32,415 nucleotides of DNA from a virus (IMGVR_UViG_3300030329_004399:1-32415); one strand, 5' to 3'. Shown: positions 550 through 24,812, counted from the stretch's first letter. A program made the numbers and translations. Notes: generated by a model from the letters alone, not told the origin.

Positions 550-2420
550 CCGGATTTAAAAAATACATTTCTGAAACATCAGATAATATTGAAAAGATCT
601 TTAATAATAATAAAATATTAACTGCCGCGGAATGGGCGGAAAATATCAGACGCATGGATGGGGGCAGGAATTACAGATTTTCTTTTGCCCCATATCAAAA
701 GGAAATGATGATGACCCCTTTTGATAAAAAAATACAAATGACGGTATTTCAATTAGCATCACGATTAGGGAAGACAGAGGTATGTATGAATATTATAGGT
801 CACTCGATTGCGGAAAATCCCAGACGTATATTGACTTTATATCCAACAACCTCACAAGCGGAAAAATGGAGCAAGGAAACTTTGGAAAAAGAACTTTTTG
901 AATCAACCCCGCAATTGCAATGGTTAGTAAGAGGAGGTAGAAGAGATTCAAGCAATACTATATTACACAAATTATTTCCCGGGGGATTGATTAATATTTT
1001 TGGGGGCAATGCTCCCGGGGAGATGAGAAGAGCAAAAGGGAATTTATTATTTGCTGATGAGGTTGACGCATTGATGTCTCAAGTAGGAGATGAAGGAGAT
1101 CAGTTGCAGATTTTTTGGATGAGGGGAAGCGAATACTCTGACGCCATTAGAATTGCGGCAAGTTATCCAAGCATTGAAGGACAAAGTCGTATTGCTCAAT
1201 TAATGGAACAAAGTGATTACCGGAAATGGTATACCCCATGCATCAAATGCAAAGAGCCATTTGTAATGCTAAGAGAACATATCAAATATCCTGAAGGTGA
1301 ACCAGATAAGGCGAGACTTGAATGTCCTCATTGCGGTGAACATCTAACTGATTCTAATAGGAAAAGAATGATGAAAAAAGGTTTCTGGAAAGCGACCAGA
1401 GATTTTACAGGCATCGCGGGATTTTGGGGCAATGGGATGATGAGTCCACATCCGGTTCAAAAAGGATTCAAGTCACATTTACATTGGGTTGCGGCGCAGG
1501 AGCAAGCTATAGAAATTAGTGATAATCCCGACCGAGCAAAACATGTATTCGTAAACACCTTTGATGCGGAATGCTACAGGCCTGAAAGAGTTGAAGCCCC
1601 TGAAGCTTCCGAATTAATGAAACGGCGAGAAAATTACAATCCTAGAATTGAATTGCCTGAAGGGGTATTGATAGTGACTGCAGGGGTTGATGTACAGAAA
1701 AGATATCTTGAATGTGCCGTGTGGGGGTGGGGGGAAAATAAAGAATCTTGGTTACTCGAGCATCATATTATTCCGGGCGCCCCAGATGATCCCGGGACTT
1801 GGCAACATTTGGAAGATTATCTAGCTGGATGTAGATTCCCTCACCCCTATGGGGTAGAATTAGGTTTATTCAGACCGGGGAGTAAGGTAATGGTTGATGC
1901 GGGTCATTGGGATCAACACGTATTGCCTTGGACATTTAAAAAACAGAAACTTGGTGTATTTGCTTCACAGGGAAGTCCTACAGTTAATGCCCCAGTATTA
2001 GGGAAGCCACGTCTTGCCTCTTCTCCTCGAGCAAGGATCTATCCACTGGGGGTGAACCAGTGCAAGGATATTATTTACACCAGATTATCTTTATCAAAAC
2101 CAGACACAAAAGAATATCCGCCGGGATATATACATTTAAATCAAGCGGCTACTACTGTGTTTCTGGATGGACTTACTTGCGAGTATGGAAAAGAAGAAAG
2201 ATTCAGAGGAGAACTCTACACTCGCTATGTGTGCCCAAGTGGCAAACGTAACGAACCCTTGGATACGTATGTGTATGCGATGTGTGCGAAAATATTAATC
2301 AATCCCCGATTTGAAAAGATAAAAGAAAATCTACAAAGCCAAAAAAAGGAGGAAACAAAAACAAGAGTTAAAAGAGCAATCAGGCCACGCAAAAATTTTG
2401 CCGGATCTTTTAGTAAATGA
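546..2420 (+). CDS. Terminase large subunit, GpA family
   Basis: A 624-aa packaging motor and DNA-cleaving enzyme of the lambda gpA (Phage_GPA) family. A Walker A-like loop SRLGKTE lies around residues 72-78 and a Walker B segment LLFADE around 167-172. A CxxC...CxxC cluster (C232, C235, C260, C263) fits a zinc-binding insertion. The C-terminal nuclease region starts with the TAGVDVQ strand (acidic D382) and contains MVDAGHWDQ. GpA-type terminases usually cut at cos sites. Start is GTG at 546, overlapping the upstream stop. It is followed with a 4-nt overlap by a small gene, so the head genes are translationally coupled. Confidence 0.95.
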   Translation: MTGFKKYISETSDNIEKIFNNNKILTAAEWAENIRRMDGGRNYRFSFAPYQKEMMMTPFDKKIQMTVFQLASRLGKTEVCMNIIGHSIAENPRRILTLYPTTSQAEKWSKETLEKELFESTPQLQWLVRGGRRDSSNTILHKLFPGGLINIFGGNAPGEMRRAKGNLLFADEVDALMSQVGDEGDQLQIFWMRGSEYSDAIRIAASYPSIEGQSRIAQLMEQSDYRKWYTPCIKCKEPFVMLREHIKYPEGEPDKARLECPHCGEHLTDSNRKRMMKKGFWKATRDFTGIAGFWGNGMMSPHPVQKGFKSHLHWVAAQEQAIEISDNPDRAKHVFVNTFDAECYRPERVEAPEASELMKRRENYNPRIELPEGVLIVTAGVDVQKRYLECAVWGWGENKESWLLEHHIIPGAPDDPGTWQHLEDYLAGCRFPHPYGVELGLFRPGSKVMVDAGHWDQHVLPWTFKKQKLGVFASQGSPTVNAPVLGKPRLASSPRARIYPLGVNQCKDIIYTRLSLSKPDTKEYPPGYIHLNQAATTVFLDGLTCEYGKEERFRGELYTRYVCPSGKRNEPLDTYVYAMCAKILINPRFEKIKENLQSQKKEETKTRVKRAIRPRKNFAGSFSK

Positions 2421-2797
2421 AAAATGAAGTTGATTGCTTTAAATTAGAAGATGAGCTAGAACCAATACAAAGGGTTCATTTTCATATTTTGATACAAGCA
2501 AGACAGGATTATCTAACTGCATTGAGTTTGGAATATGTGGATGAATTTGGTAATCTTAAAAAGGAAAATTTTAGATACAAAGGAAAAGGAACTAAATTGA
2601 TTGGAGGATTTTCAACGCCCATGACCATTTCATCGCTCTATGATCTTTGCAATTATTGGAAAAGCAATGCCCCGTCAATTAGTTTTGAAATACTGGGAAT
2701 TTATTATTTTGAAACGGGCGACATATTAAAAAAACTAAACAGCGCATTGAAATTCAGAAAATCAAAACCTTCAAAATTACCACTCGATGAATTATGA
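2417..2797 (+). CDS. Hypothetical protein between terminase and gpW-like gene
   Basis: A 126-aa protein I do not recognise. It is soluble, slightly acidic at the N-terminus and lysine-rich at the C-terminus, without signal peptide or membrane segment. The ATG overlaps the terminase stop by 4 nt and its own stop overlaps the next ATG by 4 nt, so it is a true member of the head operon. Location suggests an accessory packaging or regulatory role, but nothing in the sequence shows a function. Confidence 0.75.
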   Translation: MKNEVDCFKLEDELEPIQRVHFHILIQARQDYLTALSLEYVDEFGNLKKENFRYKGKGTKLIGGFSTPMTISSLYDLCNYWKSNAPSISFEILGIYYFETGDILKKLNSALKFRKSKPSKLPLDEL

Positions 2798-3075
2798 AAA
2801 AAGCCACGTTTGATATTGATGTTTGTCGAGTAATTAGAAAATGCCCAGAGGCTACCTCTTCAACCTTGGCCACTTATGCGGCATTAAGAGAAATTGCTAC
2901 TGAAAAAGGGAGTTGTGAATTTGAGTCATCTTTTAATGAGGTTAAAAATAAGGCGCTATTATCTGAATCAGGAGTTAAAAAACATATTGCATTAATGGAG
3001 AGGCGGAGACTATTACAGAAAAAGAATACATCTGAAGGCATTGAATTCCGATTGATCAAGGTTTTCAAGGCCTAG
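2794..3075 (+). CDS. Small winged-helix/HTH-like protein
   Basis: A 93-aa protein whose layout (TLATYAALREIA, then LSESGVKKHIALMERRRLLQ at about residues 63-82) resembles the helix-turn-helix plus wing region of phage and plasmid replication or regulatory proteins (HTH_36-like): helix, recognition helix and a basic beta wing. It overlaps the preceding gene by 4 nt and is followed by a TGATCTAT promoter rather than a coupled gene. A DNA-binding protein inside the head operon, just before a late promoter, could be a regulator of that promoter class; this is inference. Confidence 0.65.
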   Translation: MKKATFDIDVCRVIRKCPEATSSTLATYAALREIATEKGSCEFESSFNEVKNKALLSESGVKKHIALMERRRLLQKKNTSEGIEFRLIKVFKA

Positions 3076-3115
3076 TGATCTATAAAAATAATTAAAATGA
3101 GGTATTTTTTTTAAA
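3076..3115 (+). promoter_or_regulatory. Putative late promoter (TGATCTAT class) before the gpW-like gene
   Basis: TGATCTAT (3076-3083), exactly 19 nt, TATTTT (3103-3108), then 7 nt to the GTG at 3116. No Shine-Dalgarno sequence is present between promoter and start. Confidence 0.7.
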
Positions 3116-3658
3116 GTGGCCGATACTGCACCAAAAAGTAAATTATACTCCGGAGATTCGTCAAGCTGGACGAGTTCATTTTCTGACTATCCAGCAACGA
3201 CATATTCTGCAATCTGTATATTCCAAAAGCATGGGACTGATCCATTAACCTTGACATCAACGGCAAGCGGTAATGATTTTTCCTTTACATTTGAAAGTGA
3301 GAAATCTTCATTACTAGATCCCGGTGAATGGAATTGGGCGATAAGAGTAAAAAATGGAACGGAGATAGTAACCGCATCTACCGGGAAAATAAAAATCCTG
3401 CCGAATCCGGAAAGGGTATATCAACCCACATTTTATGAAAAATGTTTGAATTTAATACAGGCGGCAATTGAAGAAAGATTAACAGATGTGCAGGAATCAA
3501 TAACAATATTAGGGCAGGATATTACAAAAATACCTGCAGGCGAATTACATAGACTGCAACATTATTACCAAGCTCAAGTAAATAAGGAGCGCAAATTTAA
3601 TGAACAATTGATTACTGGCAAACGTACGCGTAGGTCGAGAATATACTTAAAGGACTAA
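3116..3658 (+). CDS. Head-tail joining protein, gpW-like domain with Ig-like N-terminus
   Basis: A 180-aa protein with two parts. Residues about 1-100 look like a beta-rich Ig-type domain (WTSSFSDYPATTYSAICIFQ, EWNWAIRVKNG). Residues about 110-160 (AAIEERLTDVQESITILGQD, then LHRLQHYYQAQVNKE) resemble the small helical gpW head-completion domain. The gene lies between the large terminase and the portal, exactly where lambda W lies between A and B, which supports the role. Starts at GTG, the only in-frame start after the promoter; its stop overlaps the portal ATG by one base. Confidence 0.65.
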   Translation: MADTAPKSKLYSGDSSSWTSSFSDYPATTYSAICIFQKHGTDPLTLTSTASGNDFSFTFESEKSSLLDPGEWNWAIRVKNGTEIVTASTGKIKILPNPERVYQPTFYEKCLNLIQAAIEERLTDVQESITILGQDITKIPAGELHRLQHYYQAQVNKERKFNEQLITGKRTRRSRIYLKD

Positions 3659-5379
3659 TGGCTGGTAAATTTATCTTTAATAAGAAAACAGGGAAATTAA
3701 AATTGAAGACCAATGCAAAAAGGTCTTACGGGGCGGTAATTTCTGATCAATTACAAGAGGGATGGACTGCCGCTTTAAGTAACGCCCACTCGGAATTCAG
3801 GGGTGGCATTGTCAGATTAAGAAATATGACAAGGGATCTGGAGCGATCCAATCCGTACGCAATTAGATTTCTGAACGAGTGGGTGACTAATATAGTCGGA
3901 ACTGGTTTTACTTTTCAATCTTTAGCAACTAATGCCCAAGGCAGAGAGGATGAAAATGCCCGCAATCAAATAGAAGAGGCGTGGCTAGATTGGAAGAAAG
4001 CAAGAAATTGCTGTGCATCTGGTGATATGCCTTACACCGAATTCAAAGGATTAAGTGAAAGAGCATGTGCAAGGGATGGAGGGGTATTGATTCAAAAGCT
4101 TAGAGGATTTGATAATAAGTACGGATTTGCTTTGAATGTATTAGAAATTGACAGACTGGATGTTGATTATAATGAGAAAAAGCTAAAAAATGGGAATCAG
4201 GTCATAATGGGGAAAGAGCTTGATCCTTACGGATGGAATAAACCAATTGCATATCATATACTTGGCGATCATCCCGGGGAAACCTATTCCAGAGCGGGGA
4301 GAACAAGAACAAGAATTCCTGCAGATCAAATCATACACAGATTTTATCGCAAGAGATTAGAATCAGCACATGGGGAACCTCTTATGGTCGGAGCGATTTC
4401 CGGACTGAGACATTTAGAAAAATTTGAAGAGGCGGAGCAAATAGCGGCAAGATTAAGTGCCTGTGCTACCGTTGCCATTGAAAGAGATAGTTCTACGCCT
4501 TACGAGGGAGAGGAATACTTAGATCAAGAATTGACCCCCGGGGGAAAATTTGAACTCGAGCCGGGAGAAAAAGCAACTTTACTAAATCCAACACATCCAA
4601 ATGCTAATTACGAAAGTTTTAGACGAGGAGTTTTACAAGGGGTAGCATCTGGATTGCTAACTAATTATCCTAATTTAGGTCAGGATTATGGAGGGGTTAG
4701 TTATTCTTCATTAAGGGAATCAAAATTAAATATCAAAGCTCTAACAAATGTTTATAGAGCATTAAATATTGAAAATGAGGAGGAGCATATTTTTAGGAGT
4801 TGGTTGGGATATGTATTACGGACAGGACAATTAAAATTACCCGCATCTAATTTTGAGAATTTAGCCAAGGGTAACTTTGTAGGGAAGGGGCATGAATGGG
4901 TAGACCCATTAAAGGATGTTAATGGATTAGAAAAGGAACTTTCAATTGGGGCCACTTCATTATCTAGGGCAGTAAAAGAAAGGTTAGGGGTTTCTTTAGA
5001 TGTAATAATTAAAGAAAGACAGCGAGATATTGAAGCATTTAAAAAGGCTGGGCTGGAAGTGCCGGCAATTTTAAAAGGTTCAGATTCAGATTCAGATTCA
5101 GATTCAGGTTCAGATTCAGAAGAAATTTCCTCATTACTAGGCGATTTAAAAGAGCAAGCCGATACTTATGGTGTAGGAGTAAGGGCGGGAATGGTAACCC
5201 CACAAACTATTGATGAACAGGATTTCAGAGAAAAGGCGGGACTCCCCGAAATGACAAAAGAAGCAAAAGAAGCTTGGAAAGAGGATGGAGGAATTAGGAG
5301 GCCAATAACTCTGCAATCGCAAAATGCCTTTGAATCCACACAGGATGAAATTGCTTCTGATCTATTAAATGAGGAATAA
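3658..5379 (+). CDS. Portal protein, lambda B family
   Basis: A 573-aa protein forming the dodecameric DNA gate at the capsid vertex. It shows the usual lambda-type portal course: basic N-terminus, NPYAIRFLNEWVTNIVGTGF (about residues 62-81), a VLEIDRLDVDYN segment, HRFYRKRLESAHGEPLMVGA, and GVASGLLTNYPNLGQDYGGV with SSLRESK. Length is typical. Near residues 475-495 there is an unusual serine-aspartate tract coded by a tandem hexanucleotide repeat, which ends the portal core and begins a charged C-terminal tail. The C-terminal codons carry the TGATCTAT box of the capsid promoter. Confidence 0.93.
   Translation: MAGKFIFNKKTGKLKLKTNAKRSYGAVISDQLQEGWTAALSNAHSEFRGGIVRLRNMTRDLERSNPYAIRFLNEWVTNIVGTGFTFQSLATNAQGREDENARNQIEEAWLDWKKARNCCASGDMPYTEFKGLSERACARDGGVLIQKLRGFDNKYGFALNVLEIDRLDVDYNEKKLKNGNQVIMGKELDPYGWNKPIAYHILGDHPGETYSRAGRTRTRIPADQIIHRFYRKRLESAHGEPLMVGAISGLRHLEKFEEAEQIAARLSACATVAIERDSSTPYEGEEYLDQELTPGGKFELEPGEKATLLNPTHPNANYESFRRGVLQGVASGLLTNYPNLGQDYGGVSYSSLRESKLNIKALTNVYRALNIENEEEHIFRSWLGYVLRTGQLKLPASNFENLAKGNFVGKGHEWVDPLKDVNGLEKELSIGATSLSRAVKERLGVSLDVIIKERQRDIEAFKKAGLEVPAILKGSDSDSDSDSGSDSEEISSLLGDLKEQADTYGVGVRAGMVTPQTIDEQDFREKAGLPEMTKEAKEAWKEDGGIRRPITLQSQNAFESTQDEIASDLLNEE
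5081..5119 (+). repeat. Tandem GATTCA hexanucleotide repeat in the portal gene
   Basis: About six copies of a 6-bp unit (GATTCA with one GGTTCA variant) encode alternating Ser-Asp. Simple repeats of this kind change copy number by slippage in steps of two residues without breaking frame. Confidence 0.85.
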
Positions 5380-5398
5380 TATATTATAAGTAATAAAT
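5358..5398 (+). promoter_or_regulatory. Putative late promoter (TGATCTAT class) of the capsid gene
   Basis: TGATCTAT (5358-5365) lies inside the last portal codons, followed by 19 nt, TATAAG (5385-5390) and 8 nt to the ATG at 5399. A dedicated promoter for the most abundant virion protein makes sense, and a GC hairpin terminator follows that gene. Confidence 0.7.
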
Positions 5399-7345
5399 AT
5401 GGAAACAGGATACCGTACATTCAAAGTAGATCGTTCTGATAATGGAGAAATACCCAGAGGAATTTTAACATCAGAACAACCCGTTGCTATGTGGGACTGG
5501 AAAAGGGGTGATTACATACCTGAGGTATTATTAATGTCGGGAATGAAGGCAAGAGGGCTGTCCATTAAATTACTCGACACACATAAAACAGATTCAGTAT
5601 CTTCAGTATTAGGATCATTCAGTGATTTAAAAATTAAATCAGCCGGGGAAAGAGAAGTTCCTTTTGATTTTGTCGAGGGAAAAATTGAAGTTTCATCTGT
5701 ACATCCTGAAGTTGAAACTAAATTACAGGAGGGGCATATAAATGAAATGTCAGTGGGATATAAATACACAGAAGATAAAACGATACATGTTCCTGAAGGG
5801 GAAAAATTAGAACATGATGGGAAGGAATACAGTGGCCCAATTAATTTAAGGACTGAATGGCATGCAGAAGAGGCTTCACTTGTGCCAATCGGGGCAGATT
5901 CACAAGCTCAGATTAGAGGGTATAAAGATTTTGAAGAAGCAAAAAAGATTTCACGCCAACCTAATAAAACCAAAAGCGAGCAAAGAGAGGTGACACTTTC
6001 TAATGCTGAAGCCAATGACAAGGTTAATCTGGAGGAAAAACGGGAAGGTGAGAAAACCCAAACTAAAACAACAAATTCAACAGAAAATAAATCCGATATG
6101 GAAGAAGAAAAAAAGGATGAGAATGTTGATGAACAAGTAGAGGTAGCCGTTAAAGCTACCAAGGAAGCATTTGACAAAAGGGCAGATGCAATCCTTGCTC
6201 TTGGTGAAGAAGTTGGAGACAGCAATTGGGCTCTCTCACAACTTCGTTCAGATAAGAGCGTTGAAGAAGTTCAAAGACAAGCCATCACAAAATTAAAAGA
6301 AGATTCTAAAAGTTTAGGATCTACACCTGAGCCACTTGGTCTCAGTAAGAAAGAAAGCAAATCTTACTCAATTGCCAATGCTATGAAAAGCTTGGTTAAT
6401 GGGGGAAGAGTTGAAGGACTGGAAAAAGAAGTTTCTGATGCTATTGCTAAACGCAGTGGAAGAGAAACACATGGATTTTTCCTCGCCTCTCAAAGAGATC
6501 TGAATATCACCGATGATGCCGCCCTTGTTCCAGAAGACACAAGAGGGGGAGACTTCGTTGATGCTCTTCGTCCTAATATGGTAACAATGCAAGCCGGTGT
6601 TCGTATTCTTAACGGACTAAAAGGCGATGTTGTTATTCCTAGAAAGACAGCAACTTCAGAAGCTACTTTTAAAGCTGAAACAACTATTCATACTGAAACA
6701 GAGCCAGTCTTTGATTCAATCAGTTTGACTCCAAGGCATCTTGGTACTTTCACCGATGTTAGTAAGCAACTATTAGCTCAAGGAACTCCAGATGTTGATG
6801 CTCTTATTAGAGACGATCTACAAAAGGCAGTTGCTGTTGGACTTGACAAGGCAGTTATTCAGGGCGCAGGTTCTGGATCAAATGCCCCACAAGGAATTAT
6901 TGGAGCAACAGGAGTTGAGGATATCGCAATTGGCGACAATGATGGGGGGGAGCCAACAACAGCTGAGTTGCATGCTTTCTTAAAACAGCTTGACGATAAT
7001 AATGCTTTAACAAGCAATTGTACATGGATAACAACCCCTCAAATCGCAGCGGCAGCGAAGCAAACTTTGCTAACTAGTGCTGTTTCTGGATACCAGTGGG
7101 ATATGTCCAATAATACAATGCTTGGCTATCCGGCATACAGCACTGCAAATATCCCTGCGGAAAGAACGATATTCGGAGATTTCTCTGAATATATTCTAGG
7201 AATATGGGATGGTGGTATTGAAATCACTTATGATCCATACAGTGGAGCAAAGAACAGATTGGTTACATTTATTCTAAATGTTATGTGTGACGGAAACGTT
7301 AGACAGCCTAAGTCATTTGCTGAATCTGATGATGGTTCCGCTTAA
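5399..7345 (+). CDS. Prohead protease-major capsid protein fusion (HK97 type)
   Basis: A single 648-aa chain. Residues about 1-175 are an S78-type prohead protease: LLDTHK with the catalytic His at 62, GHINEMSVGY with the Ser at 118, and TEWHAEEASLVPIGAD. Residues about 180-300 are a highly charged linker that would act as the delta/scaffold region. Residues about 305-648 are an HK97-fold capsid protein (LVPEDTRGGDFVDALRPNM, RKTATSEATFKAE, RDDLQKAVAVGLDKAVIQG, SNAPQGIIG, YDPYSGAKNRL). After assembly the protease would cut itself off the capsid domain. An internal ATG at about 6098 (SDMEEEKKDENVD) could give free capsid precursor. Own promoter upstream and strong hairpin downstream. Confidence 0.92.
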   Translation: METGYRTFKVDRSDNGEIPRGILTSEQPVAMWDWKRGDYIPEVLLMSGMKARGLSIKLLDTHKTDSVSSVLGSFSDLKIKSAGEREVPFDFVEGKIEVSSVHPEVETKLQEGHINEMSVGYKYTEDKTIHVPEGEKLEHDGKEYSGPINLRTEWHAEEASLVPIGADSQAQIRGYKDFEEAKKISRQPNKTKSEQREVTLSNAEANDKVNLEEKREGEKTQTKTTNSTENKSDMEEEKKDENVDEQVEVAVKATKEAFDKRADAILALGEEVGDSNWALSQLRSDKSVEEVQRQAITKLKEDSKSLGSTPEPLGLSKKESKSYSIANAMKSLVNGGRVEGLEKEVSDAIAKRSGRETHGFFLASQRDLNITDDAALVPEDTRGGDFVDALRPNMVTMQAGVRILNGLKGDVVIPRKTATSEATFKAETTIHTETEPVFDSISLTPRHLGTFTDVSKQLLAQGTPDVDALIRDDLQKAVAVGLDKAVIQGAGSGSNAPQGIIGATGVEDIAIGDNDGGEPTTAELHAFLKQLDDNNALTSNCTWITTPQIAAAAKQTLLTSAVSGYQWDMSNNTMLGYPAYSTANIPAERTIFGDFSEYILGIWDGGIEITYDPYSGAKNRLVTFILNVMCDGNVRQPKSFAESDDGSA

Positions 7346-20040: not shown

Positions 20041-20405
20041 AATATTTACTATTATTTTGGATTCTTTGCATTAAGGCAAATGCAGATGATCATTGGGGCG
20101 CTCCTCCTCCTATCCCAGAGTTACAGATAGCTCATTTCCCGGCGATGGGAGTAATAGAAATAAGTTGGATAAGTGACAGTACCTTTGATAAACCTATTTG
20201 GTTTTTATTGGAAGTGAAACAGGTTAATCCCGAAAATGGGAAACCTGACCCCAATGAAAAATGGCATAGGCCATTCAATCCACTTCAGGGGACTAATTTC
20301 AATGAGAGGGTTACTCTTAATCTCAGTTATAGAAATGCCGCAGGGAATATACAATCTTGGTTCAATGCGGAGATGATTCGCATTCGTGTAATGTGGGGAG
20401 CTTAA
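20037..20405 (+). CDS. Secreted hypothetical protein
   Basis: A 122-aa protein with a signal peptide (MKYLLLFWILCIKANA, likely cut after ANA at residue 16) and a Trp/Pro-rich mature part (DDHWGAPPPIPELQ; VIEISWISDSTFDKPIWFLL) that looks like a fibronectin/Ig-like strand pattern. It would act in the periplasm or outside the cell. Last gene of the + strand block; its TAA overlaps the stop of the convergent XRE gene in the shared TTAA at 20402-20405. No terminator lies between them. Confidence 0.65.
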   Translation: MKYLLLFWILCIKANADDHWGAPPPIPELQIAHFPAMGVIEISWISDSTFDKPIWFLLEVKQVNPENGKPDPNEKWHRPFNPLQGTNFNERVTLNLSYRNAAGNIQSWFNAEMIRIRVMWGA

Positions 20406-20575
20406 TTATCTTGCAATTCCGTCCTTAATCTTTTGATGGCTAAGAAAGCCTCTTTTGTAATCCTATATGCCCCTGTTTCTCTTTTAGAAATAGTAGCTTT
20501 ATCAACTTCCAATTCTTTTGCCACTTGCGCTTGAGTGCCGATTTCTTTTCTCAATTTAGTGTATTCTTTATTCAT
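20402..20575 (-). CDS. 57-aa XRE/Cro-type HTH protein
   Basis: Reading from ATG 20575-20573 gives MNKEYTKLRKEIGTQAQVAK then ELEVDKATISKRETGAYRIT, the classic lambda-Cro/XRE arrangement: helix 2 (TQAQVAKEL), turn, recognition helix (DKATISKRE) and GAYRI. It is a short Cro-like regulator, too short to be called by length-filtered gene finders. Its ATG overlaps the stop of the upstream (frameshifted) gene as ATGA at 20572-20575. It is the last gene of the - strand block and lies tail-to-tail with the late operon, so it could dimerise and repress early or control late promoters. Family assignment is strong; targets are unknown. Confidence 0.85.
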   Translation of the reverse strand: MNKEYTKLRKEIGTQAQVAKELEVDKATISKRETGAYRITKEAFLAIKRLRTELQDN

Positions 20576-20882
20576 ACCTTTTCTATTAAAATTGAACCAT
20601 CCTTATTCCAAAAAATTTCCGCCTCACTTTTTCCATCCTGAGTGATTCTGTTATACTTATCCAAAGCGATTTGAAATTTTGGATAACTGAATTTTGCCCA
20701 CATTTGAAGATCCTGCAAAAACATCTTATCTCTTTCCTCATCAATCTTAACCGGGGCAGGATCATCTGGGATTTGTGAATAAGGTTGCCGTTAGCGTCTT
20801 CGTACATATCAACGCCAGCGTCACTTCTGGGCTTTATGTCGTTAGCCTCTGCCATTTCTTTAATTTCAATTTCTGTTTTCAT
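20572..20882 (-). pseudogene. Hypothetical gene split by an apparent -1 frameshift
   Basis: From ATG 20882 the first frame reads MKTEIEIKEMAEANDIKPRS, then GVDMYEDANGNL, after which protein-like sequence stops. In the -1 frame, open from 20790 to the TGA at 20574-20572, it continues convincingly: IPDDPAPVKIDEERDKMFLQ, then DLQMWAKFSYPKFQIALDKY and EAEIFWNKDGSILIEKV. The switch must lie between 20790 and about 20770. The zero frame runs on to 20586 with Arg/Cys-rich out-of-frame-looking sequence. No classic slippery heptamer is visible in the window, so an indel (real or sequencing error) is the simplest view. The -1 reading ends in a natural ATGA overlap with the XRE gene. Confidence 0.7.
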
Positions 20883-20900
20883 AGTTAGTTTTTTTATTTG

Positions 20901-20925
20901 TGCCAGGGGTGGAACCTAGCGGGTT
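20901..20925 (-). ncRNA. T-arm-like hairpin element, copy A
   Basis: On the - strand AACCCGCTAGG, loop TTCCACC, CCTGGCA. A 6-bp stem GCTAGG/CCTGGC encloses a 7-nt loop. Copy B at 22092-22116 has the same element with A-U replaced by G-C in the stem, a compensatory change. It starts 2-5 nt after the stop of the 20928 gene and lies about 20 nt before the ATG at 20882. Confidence 0.65.
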
Positions 20926-20927
20926 AA

Positions 20928-21551
20928 TTATTTTTTAAACTTCTTAATAAAAGCTTTTAGTTCTCTTACCTCTTGCTTTGCGTCCGGCTCTTTTTCCTCA
21001 AGCGCCCAGCAGTTAACGTGACCATCTTCGTAATAAGTGGACAGCATATATTCAGCTTCACTAACTGGAAATTCAGCGGGGTAGTCTTTCCAGGTTTCCA
21101 TTCCGTCATCTACGGAAAGTTCCTCTAACTTGCTTTCCAGGCAGTAAGGGATTTGTTCAACAATTTTAGAAGGCATGAGGCTGGGCTTTTTCTCAATGGG
21201 CTGTTCTGATTCTTCAAATTCTTCAAACGCTTCTTCATAAGTTTCAAACTTAACAAGTTTTTCTGAACATCCTTTATTCCAATCAATCAGGCGAACCTCT
21301 TTACCATCTTTGCGAGAAAAAATACCAAGACTTGTTTGCACTTGATAAACTCCAGCAATATAACATCCCTTTCCAAAAACCTTTTGTTCAAGTCCGTATC
21401 TCAAGATTCTCTCTAGCACTTCAAGAGGATTGGTTTTTATTCCATTCAGCAATTCAATTGGCACTTCTAGCCTTGCCTCATAGTTATTAAATGGACGAAC
21501 CTTTTTATAGGCTTTCCAGAAGAAATTAATAATAGTCATTTTTTGTTTCAT
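20928..21551 (-). CDS. Hypothetical protein, early region
   Basis: A 207-aa protein I do not recognise. Residues about 20-105 form a mixed fold with YEARLEVPIELLNGIKTNPL and a GKEVRLIDWNKG strand; the middle (110-130) is very acidic (YEEAFEEFEESEQPIEKK), and the C-terminus is basic. No membrane segment. It has its own promoter with TAATAT six bases before the ATG, so the mRNA is probably leaderless. Other in-frame ATG (residue 5) exists. Confidence 0.7.
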   Translation of the reverse strand: MKQKMTIINFFWKAYKKVRPFNNYEARLEVPIELLNGIKTNPLEVLERILRYGLEQKVFGKGCYIAGVYQVQTSLGIFSRKDGKEVRLIDWNKGCSEKLVKFETYEEAFEEFEESEQPIEKKPSLMPSKIVEQIPYCLESKLEELSVDDGMETWKDYPAEFPVSEAEYMLSTYYEDGHVNCWALEEKEPDAKQEVRELKAFIKKFKK

Positions 21552-21585
21552 GTAGATATATTATCATTTTATTCCTAATAAACAA
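21552..21585 (-). promoter_or_regulatory. Early promoter, leaderless layout (gene at 21551)
   Basis: On the - strand TTGTTT (21585-21580), 16 nt, TAATAT (21563-21558), then ATCTAC and the ATG. The sequence from TGATAATAT through the ATG (TGATAATATATCTACATGAA) is identical to that before the gene at 22997. Confidence 0.7.
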
Positions 21586-21662
21586 TCCTTTTCTTTCATT
21601 ATTTTACTTTTATCAATATAGAATAATCCATTAACTCTTTTAAATTGCCGATATTGCCCCAT
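21564..21662 (-). CDS. Possible 32-aa peptide
   Basis: ATG 21662-21660 to TGA at 21564 encodes MGQYRQFKRVNGLFYIDKSK and 12 more residues with normal phage-like composition. It sits between two small genes of the early region. Length alone gives little support and there is no Shine-Dalgarno; listed because neighbouring micro-ORFs overlap genes in the ATGA style. Confidence 0.35.
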   Translation of the reverse strand: MGQYRQFKRVNGLFYIDKSKIMKEKDCLLGIK

Positions 21663-21682
21663 ATTTGGCCGAGAAAGAGGTT

Positions 21683-21735
21683 AAAGGAGGTTCCCCACTC
21701 CACAATAGGAAACCCCCTACCCCGTTAAATACGAG
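21683..21735 (-). other. GC-rich potentially structured spacer
   Basis: On the - strand GGGGTAGGGGGTTTCC, GGAGTGGGGAACCTCC contain nested complementary segments (GGAG/CTCC; GGTTTCC/GGGAACC). A partly similar stretch (GTGTGGGGAGAACCC) occurs before the 30-aa reading frame at 23110. Could be a translational control structure; weak evidence. Confidence 0.3.
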
Positions 21736-21744
21736 GATTTTACC

Positions 21745-21822
21745 CTACCTTTTCGGTGAACTAACTGCGAAAAATCGCAGAATAAGGATTATAAATAAAA
21801 ACCAAAGGATTAAAAAGATCAT
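21745..21822 (-). CDS. Possible 25-aa membrane peptide
   Basis: ATG 21822-21820 overlaps the stop of the 21819 gene as ATGA. It codes MIFLILWFLFIILILRFFAV followed by SSPKR, an almost ideal single membrane segment. ATGA overlap is the normal coupling in this operon, which supports translation. A perfect 6-bp hairpin (CTGCGA/TCGCAG, 21768-21783) lies inside it. Confidence 0.45.
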   Translation of the reverse strand: MIFLILWFLFIILILRFFAVSSPKR

Positions 21823-22076
21823 TTTGTTTTGATTATTGGATTCCCTTTATCAATAAATACCCATGCCATTTTACTATCAGCAATAATCCCTCCGATTAGT
21901 TCCCCCTCCCAGTCCAATACTTTAAGTAATGAAAGAGAGGCAGAGGCATGATTTTTTTCACCACTCAATCGGTGATCGTATGGGTATGTCTTTTTAAATC
22001 CGCCGGAGGTCTTTGCTATAATTCTTGATCCTCTATGATCAGTAGGCCCAAGGAATGATGTTATAATTGATTGCAT
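21819..22076 (-). CDS. Hypothetical early protein
   Basis: An 85-aa protein (MQSIITSFLGPTDHRGSRII start) with AKTSGGFKKTYPYDHRLSGE and SLLKVLDWEGELIGGIIADS. It reminds of small phage proteins that begin with a translation-like SFLGPTxxRGSRI segment. I recall this type as a common small phage protein of unknown role. Preceded by T-arm-like element B and a run of A before the ATG. Confidence 0.7.
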   Translation of the reverse strand: MQSIITSFLGPTDHRGSRIIAKTSGGFKKTYPYDHRLSGEKNHASASLSLLKVLDWEGELIGGIIADSKMAWVFIDKGNPIIKTK

Positions 22077-22091
22077 TTTTTTAGTAGATTA

Positions 22092-22116
22092 TGCCGGGGA
22101 TCGAACCCAGCGGGTT
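22092..22116 (-). ncRNA. T-arm-like hairpin element, copy B
   Basis: On the - strand AACCCGCTGGG, loop TTCGATC, CCCGGCA: a 6-bp stem closing the 7-nt loop UUCGAUC, which fits the tRNA T-loop consensus (UUCRANN). 21 of 25 bases match copy A, with one compensatory pair change. It starts just after the TAA of the gene at 22119 and lies about 16 nt before ATG 22076. No acceptor or other tRNA arms are present. Confidence 0.7.
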
Positions 22117-22118
22117 GA

Positions 22119-22358
22119 TTAGTATTGGACGTAAATGTCTGCCAGTGCGTTAAGCTCCTTAATTACGTCTGTTTTGTTTTTAAGATTCAAAACAGTAATT
22201 TTATGTTTGATGGGTTGGAAATCGGCATCTTCAGTACCGTTGATTTTAATTCTTTCCTTAACTTTTTTCATACTGGAATGATAAGAAAAAGATAAGTCTT
22301 TAGTATCATTAAATCGGCAATCAGTTACTGAATAGCTGTGTAGTTCGTATATTTTCAT
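22119..22358 (-). CDS. Hypothetical early protein
   Basis: A 79-aa protein, mixed charge, with MKIYELHSYSVTDCRFNDTK at the start and a helical C-terminus (NKTDVIKELNALADIYVQY). Unknown family. Its ATG follows hammerhead ribozyme 1 by about 20 nt with an A-rich stretch and no Shine-Dalgarno. Confidence 0.7.
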   Translation of the reverse strand: MKIYELHSYSVTDCRFNDTKDLSFSYHSSMKKVKERIKINGTEDADFQPIKHKITVLNLKNKTDVIKELNALADIYVQY

Positions 22359-22379
22359 TTTTTTTGTAGGTTTAATTTT

Positions 22380-22438
22380 TGATCTATCTCGTCAGTGCCA
22401 GTAGATCAACTCTGACAGACCCCGAAGGGTTTCGATTA
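22380..22438 (-). ncRNA. Hammerhead ribozyme 1, type II
   Basis: On the - strand all core bases of the hammerhead are present in circular order: C then GAA (G12-A14), stem III A-CCC / loop UUCG / GGG-U, C17 at 22418, stem I UGUCAG / loop AGUUGAUCUA / CUGGCA, CUGACGA (C3-A9), then G of stem II. Stems I and III are closed by loops, so stem II is open (type II). Stem II is short: GAU/AUC, an A-A mismatch, then G-U. Predicted cut between 22418 and 22417. The stem I loop UGAUCUA can pair with UAGAUCA just downstream. The element begins at the stop codon of the 22436 gene. Confidence 0.88.
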
Positions 22439-22672
22439 GTTAATTTTTTTGAATTGTTGAATAATTGGTTGTATTTCAGATTTATCAAACCACCCAATTT
22501 TAACTTGGGCGCAAATAAAAGACGTAAAAGATAGAATAACATCTTCACCTCTTAAATATCCTGTTTCCACTGAATCCACTTCAACCTGTTTCCTAGCTAA
22601 ATACTGGTAATTATAAATAGCATGAACGACATCATGATTAACGGTTTTGAATGTAATTAGTTCTCTGTTCAT
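22436..22672 (-). CDS. Hypothetical early protein
   Basis: A 78-aa protein (MNRELITFKTVNHDVVHAIY, then NYQYLARKQVEVDSVETGYL) of unknown family, between the two hammerhead ribozymes. The TAA stop at 22436 is part of the 5' strand of stem II of hammerhead 1. The ATG follows AACCTACCGAAAAA, similar to the leader of the 22119 gene. Confidence 0.7.
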   Translation of the reverse strand: MNRELITFKTVNHDVVHAIYNYQYLARKQVEVDSVETGYLRGEDVILSFTSFICAQVKIGWFDKSEIQPIIQQFKKIN

Positions 22673-22702
22673 TTTTTCGGTAGGTTATTTTTGTTTTAAT
22701 TC

Positions 22703-22763
22703 TGATCTATCTCGTCAGTGCCGTGGAATCATTCACGACAGACTCCCGAAGGAGTTTCGATTA
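22703..22763 (-). ncRNA. Hammerhead ribozyme 2, type II
   Basis: Same core as copy 1: C-GAA, stem III A-CUCC / UUCG / GGAG-U, C17 at 22741, stem I UGUCGUG / AAUGAUUC / CACGGCA, CUGACGA, G and the conserved GAUAGAUCA tail. Stems I and III differ in sequence from copy 1 but stay fully paired, so they covary. Predicted cut between 22741 and 22740. The stem I loop UGAUU can pair with downstream GAUCA. It begins at the stop codon of the 22761 gene. Confidence 0.9.
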
Positions 22764-22997
22764 ATTGGTAGTGCCGGAAAAATTCACTGGAATATCAATG
22801 TAATTTCCTGTACCGAACACTGTTAAAAAGGCTTCCCCATCTTCATTGAAAGCTACTTCCAAATCTTTGATTTTATATTCTGTTTCCGTGTATCCCCATT
22901 CTCCAGTAAAAGGATTACACTCAGGTTTCTTAATCGTAATAGAGGTTGCGATGATGGGGCTATTCTCGTCAATTTGGGCAATATTTTTTTTCTTCAT
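22761..22997 (-). CDS. Hypothetical early protein
   Basis: A 78-aa protein with MKKKNIAQIDENSPIIATSI, a GEWGYTETEYKIKDLEV segment and a strand-rich end. It looks like a small beta protein. First gene of the ribozyme-separated set; own leaderless-type promoter with TAATAT six bases before the ATG. Function unknown. Confidence 0.7.
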   Translation of the reverse strand: MKKKNIAQIDENSPIIATSITIKKPECNPFTGEWGYTETEYKIKDLEVAFNEDGEAFLTVFGTGNYIDIPVNFSGTTN

Positions 22998-23031
22998 GTA
23001 GATATATTATCAACATATCAGCCAATGACAA
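22998..23031 (-). promoter_or_regulatory. Early promoter, leaderless layout (gene at 22997)
   Basis: On the - strand TTGTCA (23031-23026), 16 nt, TAATAT (23009-23004), ATCTAC, ATG 22997. It would start the transcript that contains both hammerheads. Confidence 0.72.
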
Positions 23032-23150: not shown

Positions 23151-23303
23151 TTAGATCATAGAAATCAGCTTAAATCCAATATAAATACCTATTATTCCCA
23201 TGATCCCCGGCAATTCTGGAGGGGCAGGAATTGGCAATTTAAATGAGGCAAAAATAGCCCCAACCGTCATGCCTGTAACTAAAGCTAAAAGAATCATTAT
23301 CAT
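23151..23303 (-). CDS. XapX domain membrane protein (50 aa)
   Basis: ATG 23303-23301 overlaps the queD stop as ATGA. The 50-aa product has two membrane helices (MIMILLALVTGMTVGAIFAS and GIMGIIGIYIGFKLISMI) joined by the signature FKLPIPAPPELPG, matching the small XapX/DUF1427 family in length and motif. It is the last gene of the deazaguanine operon. Function of the family is unknown; its coupling to queD suggests a membrane role linked to precursor supply, which is inference. It is too short for length-filtered gene calling. Confidence 0.85.
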   Translation of the reverse strand: MIMILLALVTGMTVGAIFASFKLPIPAPPELPGIMGIIGIYIGFKLISMI

Positions 23304-23647
23304 TTTCTTTCCCATACAGCCCCACAAGTATCCGTTTCCCTTATTTCTATTCTATAGAGTCCCGGCAATTTAGATTTTAATTCAAGATAAAACCATTCAA
23401 CTATCTTTTCAGATGAGGTCACTTCAATCCAATTATTCAAGTAGGTATGATCAAACTTTTCAATGATTGGATTCACCACTTTTTTAATATCAGCGAAATC
23501 CATAATCATTCCTGTCGCATCATCTGGTTCCCCTTCAATCTCAATTCTTAGATGATAATTATGACCATGAATTTCAGAGCATGGATGCCCCTCAATTAAT
23601 AAATTATGAGCCGCACAAAATTTAAACTCTTTAAATGCTCTTATCAT
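23300..23647 (-). CDS. queD: 6-carboxytetrahydropterin synthase QueD
   Basis: A 115-aa enzyme turning dihydroneopterin triphosphate into 6-carboxytetrahydropterin in preQ0 synthesis. Zinc ligands are visible at H14 (FCAAHNL) and H28/H30 (EIHGHNYHL), with catalytic C23. TSSEKIVEWFY and the C-terminal IEIRETDTCGAVWE with the pterin-binding Glu are in place. Length is typical. ATGA overlap with queC upstream and XapX downstream. Confidence 0.95.
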   Translation of the reverse strand: MIRAFKEFKFCAAHNLLIEGHPCSEIHGHNYHLRIEIEGEPDDATGMIMDFADIKKVVNPIIEKFDHTYLNNWIEVTSSEKIVEWFYLELKSKLPGLYRIEIRETDTCGAVWERK

Positions 23648-24264
23648 TTTTCAATAGTGGCTAAAGCTTCGGCTCTTTCAACACATGATCCACATTTACC
23701 ACAAGGTTCTTCACCCCCTTCATAACATGTCCATGTCATATCAAATGGCACTTTTAGCTCATGCCCCAATCTGGCAATCCATCCTTTATCAAATTCAACA
23801 AAAGGCGTTAATAATTCCAATTGCTTCCAATCACAAAGACTCAAAGCAACTCGCATAGCTTCAACAAATTCAGTTCTGCAATCTGGATAGATAGCATGGT
23901 CACCGGCATGGCATCCATAAGCTAAACAATCCTTGTCTTTAGCAATGGCAATTGATGCCGCATGAGCAATCATTACCATGTTCCTATTAGGAACTACTGT
24001 TTGCTTCATCGATTCCTCCGCATAATGACCATGAGGAACATCACCGCTTCCCGTTAATGCTGATCCAGATAACTGAGGTATCTCAACAATTGAATGCTCA
24101 ACACTCAAAAGAGCGCAAATGTTTTTAGCTGAATCAATCTCCCTTTTATGTCTTTGATTATAATTGAAACTTACAGCTTCAACGTCATGCCCTGAGGCTC
24201 TTAAATGATAGAGAAGGACTGTTGAGTCCAACCCTCCTGAATATATTAGTAATGTCTTTTTCAT
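23644..24264 (-). CDS. queC: 7-cyano-7-deazaguanine (preQ0) synthase QueC
   Basis: A 206-aa ATP-dependent enzyme that converts 7-carboxy-7-deazaguanine to preQ0. The PP-loop SGGLDS lies at residues 9-14; the C-terminal zinc site CYEGGEEPCGKCGSC (C180, C188, C191, C194) is intact. It is plain QueC with no glutaminase/amidotransferase fusion, so the pathway would stop at preQ0 rather than the G+ form. ATGA overlaps with folE and queD. Confidence 0.96.
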   Translation of the reverse strand: MKKTLLIYSGGLDSTVLLYHLRASGHDVEAVSFNYNQRHKREIDSAKNICALLSVEHSIVEIPQLSGSALTGSGDVPHGHYAEESMKQTVVPNRNMVMIAHAASIAIAKDKDCLAYGCHAGDHAIYPDCRTEFVEAMRVALSLCDWKQLELLTPFVEFDKGWIARLGHELKVPFDMTWTCYEGGEEPCGKCGSCVERAEALATIEK

Positions 24265-24812
24265 AAATTCAATAAGTTAAGTATCTCCTGTCTAGGATTA
24301 GTTTGTTTTCTAAATTCACCCCTCATTACGGAGGTTATCATTTCCCCATCTTTTTTAATTCCTCTGCATTTCTGGCAGGTATGAACACCTCTCACTATTA
24401 CAGCAACCCCTAATGGATCAAGAGCATCTTCAATAGCATCAGCAATTTGTGCCGTCATTCTTTCCTGAGTTTGAAATCGCTTGGAATAAACATCAACAGT
24501 TCTAGCCAATTTACTCAATCCCACAATCCCATCCCGTGGAATATAGGCGACATCGGCAGTTCCAAAGAAAGGAAATAAATGATGCTCACAAAGCGAATTA
24601 AATCCAAGTCCCCTTGATATAACTATTTCATCATGAGGGACATCAAAAATAACATCTAGTTCAGGATCTTCATTATATCCCTCTGCCATTTCTTCAATGG
24701 CTCTTTCCCATCGCAATAAAGCGTCTCTAGGGCATTCATCTGGTAATTCTACAGTATGTTCCATAATTTGTGCAATTGGATTGATAGTTTCCATTCTGGG
24801 TTCTGTTTGCAT
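24261..24812 (-). CDS. folE: GTP cyclohydrolase I FolE
   Basis: A 183-aa enzyme, first step from GTP to dihydroneopterin triphosphate. Zinc ligands: C75 in SLCEHHLFPFFG with H77/H78, and C146 in HTCQKCRG; also GLSKLAR and RFQTQERMTAQIA. The ORF start overlaps queE by 64 nt; inner ATGs at 24794 and 24761 are alternatives. The longer form supplies the N-terminal helix expected ahead of the LLRWERAIEEMAEGY segment, so I keep 24812. Confidence 0.94.
   Translation of the reverse strand: MQTEPRMETINPIAQIMEHTVELPDECPRDALLRWERAIEEMAEGYNEDPELDVIFDVPHDEIVISRGLGFNSLCEHHLFPFFGTADVAYIPRDGIVGLSKLARTVDVYSKRFQTQERMTAQIADAIEDALDPLGVAVIVRGVHTCQKCRGIKKDGEMITSVMRGEFRKQTNPRQEILNLLNL

Follow-up and report, generated by a model that had tools for sequence, protein, structure and literature searches.

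Intergenic hammerhead ribozymes are already known in phages. In 2011, clustered type II hammerheads in prophages were proposed to process phage transcripts into single-gene mRNAs, and cleavage of such clusters was demonstrated both in vitro and in E. coli (PMC3088659). A pseudoknot of at least four pairs between loop I and the 3′ tail is found in the majority of type II hammerheads, and the main text of that study makes no mention of stop codons or of their pairing in stem II (PMC3088659). A self-cleaving ribozyme in a gene leader is also the basis of RiboJ-type insulators, in which RiboJ gives transcripts a uniform 5′ end and increases expression, in E. coli by two- to tenfold for protein and about twofold for transcript (PMC6206723). 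Another related structure is the T-arm of tRNA, or the TruB (TRUB1, Pus4) hairpin GUUCNANNC, in which a G-UUCNANNC-C loop is carried on a GC-rich stem.

The stretch of DNA analysed in this study (the window) is a 32,415-base record of an uncultured virus. Its early region shares with the type II hammerheads of PMC3088659 the ribozyme core, the open stem II, the loop I–tail pseudoknot and the presence of copies between successive phage genes. Different from that system, the ribozymes alternate with apparently non-catalytic hairpins resembling a tRNA T-arm, on a leader without Shine–Dalgarno (SD) sequence. Compared with RiboJ, these modules are natural, lie between cistrons and in part give way to a hairpin that is not known to be cleaved, whereas compared with a tRNA T-arm the phage hairpin has no tRNA body, often has C after C56 and is located in an mRNA spacer past a stop codon. 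The T-arm-like hairpin is apparently undescribed: Rfam searches returned no family for it and no published description was found in the open-access literature, and both the hairpin and its exchange with ribozymes look new. One region in which putatively self-cleaving and apparently non-cleaving modules stand in equivalent positions on a common leader offers a testable comparison, which bears on the old puzzle of why phages keep hammerheads between genes.

Gene order and promoter-like repeats

The small early genes A to G are encoded on the minus strand from 22997 down to 20402. Genes A (22761–22997, 78 aa), B (22436–22672, 78 aa), C (22119–22358, 79 aa), E (20928–21551, 207 aa) and F (20586–20882, 98 aa) have no family match. 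Gene D (21819–22076, 85 aa) matches phrog_3199, the function of which is not known, and gene G (20402–20575, 57 aa) encodes a helix-turn-helix protein (HTH_3) and is syntenic in the viral contigs L003 and L005. A preliminary description of this region had assigned one compact RNA element to each of four spacers, and such elements are indeed present at four of the five junctions among the six consecutive genes A to F. At these four junctions, the element lies directly past the stop codon and ahead of an A-rich, SD-less start, which gives the order A-hammerhead-B-hammerhead-C-hairpin-D and, following a new promoter-like repeat, E-hairpin-F-G.

The fifth junction, between genes D and E (21552–21818), has no compact element and ends in the second of two exact copies of a 20-base promoter-like start, TGATAATATATCTACATGAA, located on the minus strand at 22993–23012 (first unit) and at 21547–21566 (ahead of gene E). 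The window contains two copies against 0.01 expected, with up to three mismatches allowed. A weak sigma-70-like match (23031–23004) lies by the first copy, and the first unit is probably leaderless or nearly so. Given the second exact repeat before gene E, the A–G region more likely consists of two transcription units than of one, which disagrees with the single promoter (22998) initially proposed. The 267-base D–E spacer (minus strand) also contains several GC-rich inverted stretches, at about 21640–21780, before the second repeat; these may include a terminator or other structured RNA. Directly upstream of the early operon (23300–24812, minus strand), we identified genes of the preQ0 pathway (GTP cyclohydrolase, QueC and QueD-like), which may be involved in 7-deazaguanine modification of phage DNA or may have an effect on host tRNA.

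The A-rich, SD-less starts are present at the four spacers as first described, but they are not special to this operon, as no more than 7 of the window's 46 gene starts have an SD-like sequence. Given this scarcity, the phage probably initiates translation as a rule from unstructured A-rich leaders, as in Bacteroidetes, in which A-rich SD-less starts are efficient (PMC6847099).

Type II hammerheads and stop codons

The presence of two hammerheads, previously suggested from the sequence, is borne out: both are of type II and have intact cores. HHR1 (22701–22762, minus strand), between genes A and B, matches RF02276 with 46.5 bits, above the Rfam gathering score of 37 (E 1e-7 in a local scan). 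HHR2 (22378–22437, minus strand), between genes B and C, reaches 35 bits, 2 below the gathering score (E 1e-4 in the local scan and 2.8e-7 in another result). The CUGACGA/GAAA/GUC core is complete in the alignment of both, which show the type II features of CUGANGA, GAAA and an NUH triplet, with stems I and III closed and stem II open. The pseudoknot between loop I and the 3′ tail comprises 4 bp in HHR1 (TGAT/ATCA) and 8 bp in HHR2 (TTGATCTA/TAGATCAA); the minimum-energy fold of HHR2 differs from the ribozyme fold, as calculated by a program that cannot draw pseudoknots. Cuts are predicted between 22741 and 22740 in HHR1 and between 22418 and 22417 in HHR2. The hammerhead spacers before the unrelated genes B and C are alike in 68 of 90 aligned columns.

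Stem II of HHR1 takes in the end of the gene A stop codon. Type II hammerheads that adjoin a stop codon are frequent in phages, judging from a pattern search of viral contigs that matched at least 120 stretches. In 80 of the matching loci together with the window, there are 97 hammerhead sites. For 83 of the 97, the stop codon of an open reading frame (ORF) spanning 50 codons or more is no further than 15 nt away, and for 70 of the 83 an ATG-initiated ORF follows within 80 nt as well. With a search pattern that fixed TC before GAAAC and thus covered only ribozymes with this stem II sequence, the stop codon directly adjoins TCGAAAC in 47 of 91 distinct ribozymes, and its partner in stem II co-varies with it in 46 of the 47 (TAG with C in 36, TAA with T in 10, one exception). 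The last base of the stop codon is thus a paired base of stem II in many phage hammerheads. Outside the window, 37 of 89 ribozymes directly abut the stop of an ORF with 50 codons or more, whereas across these loci as a whole 0.46% of positions do. The loop I–tail pseudoknot has a mean run of 4.78 bp, versus 3.19 bp with shuffled tails.

A recurrent T-arm-like hairpin and its leader

The two other elements had been described simply as hairpins. Both are real, each with a 6-bp stem and a T-loop, but they are not generic and instead represent one recurrent, covarying element. T1 (GCUGGG UUCGAUC CCCGGC; 22093–22111, minus strand) and T2 (GCUAGG UUCCACC CCUGGC; 20902–20920, minus strand) lie 7 nt past the stop codons of genes C and E, respectively, and share a tRNA-like T-loop of the form GG-UUCNAYC-CC; the stem of T2 has A-U where T1 has G-C. 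T1 alone folds at −10.0 kcal/mol (92% of the ensemble) and T2 alone at −8.4 kcal/mol, with more than 90% of the ensemble in one structure. The motif GGTTCNANCCC occurs in the window only at T1 and T2 (2 found, 0.15 expected). Matches of the family model R1 in the window are likewise limited to these two sites, with E-values of 4.7e-10 (T1) and 6.5e-9 (T2) for sequences that both belong to the R1 training set.

Pattern searches, which found copies first in L003–L005 and then by looser patterns in further contigs, identified the hairpin in 13 other viral contigs, several of them near-identical, so that this apparently undescribed covarying RNA element is known from 14 contigs including the window. 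Across 19 aligned copies, 94.1% of cells are paired, and four of the six stem pairs change on both sides, with none of 500 shuffles as high. The stem starts about 6–10 nt past the stop codon in nearly all copies, and an A/C-rich leader joins it to the next ATG, usually about 20–35 nt further on. Neither the stem covariation nor the place after stop codons was demanded by the first search patterns. All 19 copies fit GUUCNANNC in the stem-loop, although the patterns held most of this motif and the invariance of the T-loop is therefore partly selected. The folds, the covariation, the position, the leader shared with the hammerheads and the recurrence are direct observations.

Several known elements were tried as identities for the hairpin and rejected. 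A tRNA or tRNA remnant does not fit, as there is no cloverleaf, ARAGORN finds no genes in the window or in L003–L005, and no Rfam tRNA match is present in the window. This phage carries preQ0-pathway genes, but a likeness to the PreQ1-I riboswitch (RF00522) does not go beyond a weak alignment of T2 with the A-rich tail behind it, which at 15.5 bits (E 9.1) stays below the gathering score of 39. For an intrinsic terminator, no T run or terminator-like site is found on the transcribed strand, and for a stop-codon readthrough element the frames from stop to ATG are not kept, with T1 and T2 meeting in-frame stops. One copy, at 4950–4988 in L003, is preceded by GAATCGAAACGCC, which resembles the 5′ part of a hammerhead, and lacks the 3′ half of the ribozyme; this hairpin (4954) begins CGAAACGCC after GAAT, as in a hammerhead, and gives no hammerhead match at E values up to 10. 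It is possibly a link between the two elements.

Three of the four element-bearing spacers end in closely similar leaders on the minus strand: AACCTACCGAAAAAATG after HHR1 (22670–22686, start codon included), AACCTACAAAAAAAATG after HHR2 (22356–22372) and AATCTACTAAAAAAATG after T1 (22074–22090). The window has three copies of their common sequence AAYCTACNNAAAAAATG (0 expected), one at each of these spacers; the leader after T2 is A-rich but lacks it. The leader after HHR2 is identical to one that follows a T-arm-like hairpin in L003 (8028–8044), and close forms of the AAYCTACNNAAAAAATG leader follow such hairpins in L003 and L004. Since hammerhead and hairpin spacers carry one leader, the two elements look like interchangeable modules. 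No hammerheads were found in the 13 viral records with the hairpin and no T-arm-like hairpins in the 80 hammerhead loci, many of both being fragments, and the mixture is thus seen only in the window contig.

When viral contigs were searched for AACCTACNAAAAAAATG irrespective of the element upstream, 53 stretches were returned, many of which are plainly chance occurrences within genes. Among the others, L203 has the stop-hairpin-leader arrangement with the loop GACGCA. In L209 and contigs related to it, GC-rich hairpins with different short loops follow stop codons in some places and promoter-like repeats in others. These other loops suggest that the wider rule is a hairpin plus an A/C-rich leader, of which the T-loop would be the version in the window's group and the hammerhead another version. 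L209 (a 61.6-kb contig) contains a small-gene array at 1500–6600, in which several genes have a promoter-like module TATGACACAACTTCCTGAGAAAAATACTTTTCTT, a hairpin and a AACCTACCAAAAAAATG-type leader.

L003 is syntenic with the window. Its gene D homologue is 38% identical and also lies behind a T-arm-like hairpin, and its helix-turn-helix gene is about half identical to gene G. Judged by local alignment scores against shuffles, the spacers before gene D in the two contigs are clearly alike (36 of 42 bases, ungapped; score 30 versus a shuffle maximum of 13.5). The regular layout pointed out in the preliminary description is real and extends to this relative: a T-arm-like hairpin or a hammerhead occupies all four promoterless spacers of the window, and in L003 each of the six promoterless spacers inside the early region has a T-arm-like hairpin, with a repeated promoter-like leader in its other early-gene spacers. 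A gene D protein search and a helix-turn-helix alignment gave no further relatives among viral contigs, a nucleotide search of cultured phages gave no match to the window, and a pattern scan and terminase search found no cellular relatives in GTDB contigs. Phages with a gene D homologue, those of Roseobacter among them, have early genes that mostly overlap or nearly do so, as judged by annotation. In two pairs of contigs, near-identical upstream genes are followed by different sequences: L009 (7411) and L019 (1052) are 96.5% identical for some 370 bases as far as the hairpin spacer and differ beyond it, and L027 (3566) and L029 (3336) likewise share 93% identity up to the hairpin and have different downstream genes. 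Breakpoints at the hairpin spacer suggest cassette shuffling.

Possible roles of the spacer elements

On balance, we consider it probable that the early genes are joined by modular cassettes in which hammerheads cut and T-arm-like hairpins insulate without cutting. Each cassette would comprise a stop codon, a compact RNA fold and an A/C-rich, SD-less leader ending in ATG, with the fold slot in the window taken by a type II hammerhead twice and by a T-arm-like hairpin twice. The hammerheads would most likely self-cleave during transcription at the predicted sites, leaving an upstream mRNA that ends in the stem III hairpin with a 2′,3′-cyclic phosphate and a next mRNA that starts in stem I with a 5′-OH; the predicted products are one mRNA for gene A, one for gene B and a C–D transcript with stem I and a 5′-OH end. 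The T-arm-like hairpin would most likely separate the unstructured leader from the upstream coding sequence and would block exonucleases or protect ends, while C–D and E–F stay on shared transcripts. Of the separate mRNAs suggested at the outset, those of the first two genes are predicted by the intact hammerheads; as no evidence of cutting at the T-arm-like hairpins was found, single-gene mRNAs are expected for these two only. The best reading of the elements is as 5′-UTR insulator modules, some of them putatively self-cleaving, that would work much as RiboJ does; cleavage, insulation, protection and any effect on expression are inferred.

Counting against this reading are the score of HHR2 below the Rfam cut-off and its different minimum-energy fold, as well as the confinement of the mixed elements to one contig; conservation of the T-loop in the window's group also exceeds what a plain insulating hairpin needs. 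The hairpin might instead be a tRNA mimic for host enzymes, receiving pseudouridine from TruB at U55 of GUUCNANNC or a methyl group from TrmA at U54, or being cut alongside by a tRNA-processing nuclease. All copies match GUUCNANNC on a stem, which is the TRUB1/Pus4 mRNA motif (PMC5713356), the base after C56 varies as this motif permits, GU-Ψ-C in loops is a prevalent context of pseudouridine in bacterial mRNA (PMC13236023), and the hairpins occupy hammerhead positions. A nuclease cut beside the hairpin would be the protein-dependent counterpart of hammerhead cleavage, the hairpin doing at junctions via host proteins what the hammerhead does alone. However, the search pattern included the loop, so that its invariance is partly selected, and the same-leader relatives L203 and L209 have other loops. 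The T-arm stem is also too short for an ordinary substrate of RNase P or RNase Z. We regard such mimicry as unlikely, and it seems quite unlikely that the hairpin is a new phage element that lends mRNAs to host tRNA-maturation enzymes and is exchanged with the hammerhead on one leader.

A function in translation, whereby a hairpin at a fixed distance past the stop codon holds or re-routes the ribosome for reinitiation at the next ATG in place of an SD sequence, is consistent with the near-constant 6–10 nt from stop to stem, with a start codon usually about 20–35 nt further, and with the scarcity of SD-like starts (7 of 46) together with the efficiency of A-rich SD-less starts in Bacteroidetes (PMC6847099). 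Promoter-proximal genes of L003, L019, L020, L027 and L209, which have no upstream stop, nevertheless carry a hairpin before the leader, and a hammerhead cut at the junction would break the path of the ribosome, which makes this function rather unlikely. We consider it very unlikely that the elements are conserved islands serving mainly as recombination joints or selfish repeats for the swapping of early-gene cassettes. The identity that ends at the element in L009/L019 (96.5%) and L027/L029 (93%), the likeness of the hammerhead spacers (68 of 90 columns) between unrelated genes and an exonuclease VIII-like gene in the window would agree with it, but compensatory changes indicate selection on RNA pairing, which joints do not need, and shuffling is a possible by-product of any conserved spacer. 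Equally improbable is that both hammerheads are decayed and inert and that the hairpins are merely 3′-end stabilisers of the upstream gene: HHR2 falls under the curated threshold and the hairpins lie directly past stop codons, yet catalytic core bases and pseudoknot are intact in both ribozymes, and the hairpins also precede the first genes of relatives and have no T run after them.

If the hammerheads act as cutting modules, stem II and some of the core would be hidden beneath a ribosome terminating at the stop codon, so that cutting may wait until the ribosome leaves. In many phages the upstream stop codon is part of the ribozyme, an arrangement by which cutting would be linked to the terminating ribosome moving past. 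The stop codons abutting type II hammerheads in the sampled loci (L061–L140) are TAG in 37 cases, TAA in 10 and TGA in none; TGA could form the last-base pair of TAA equally well and, among ORFs of at least 50 codons in these loci, is used more often than either other stop. It may be that the codon's middle A takes part in a contact.
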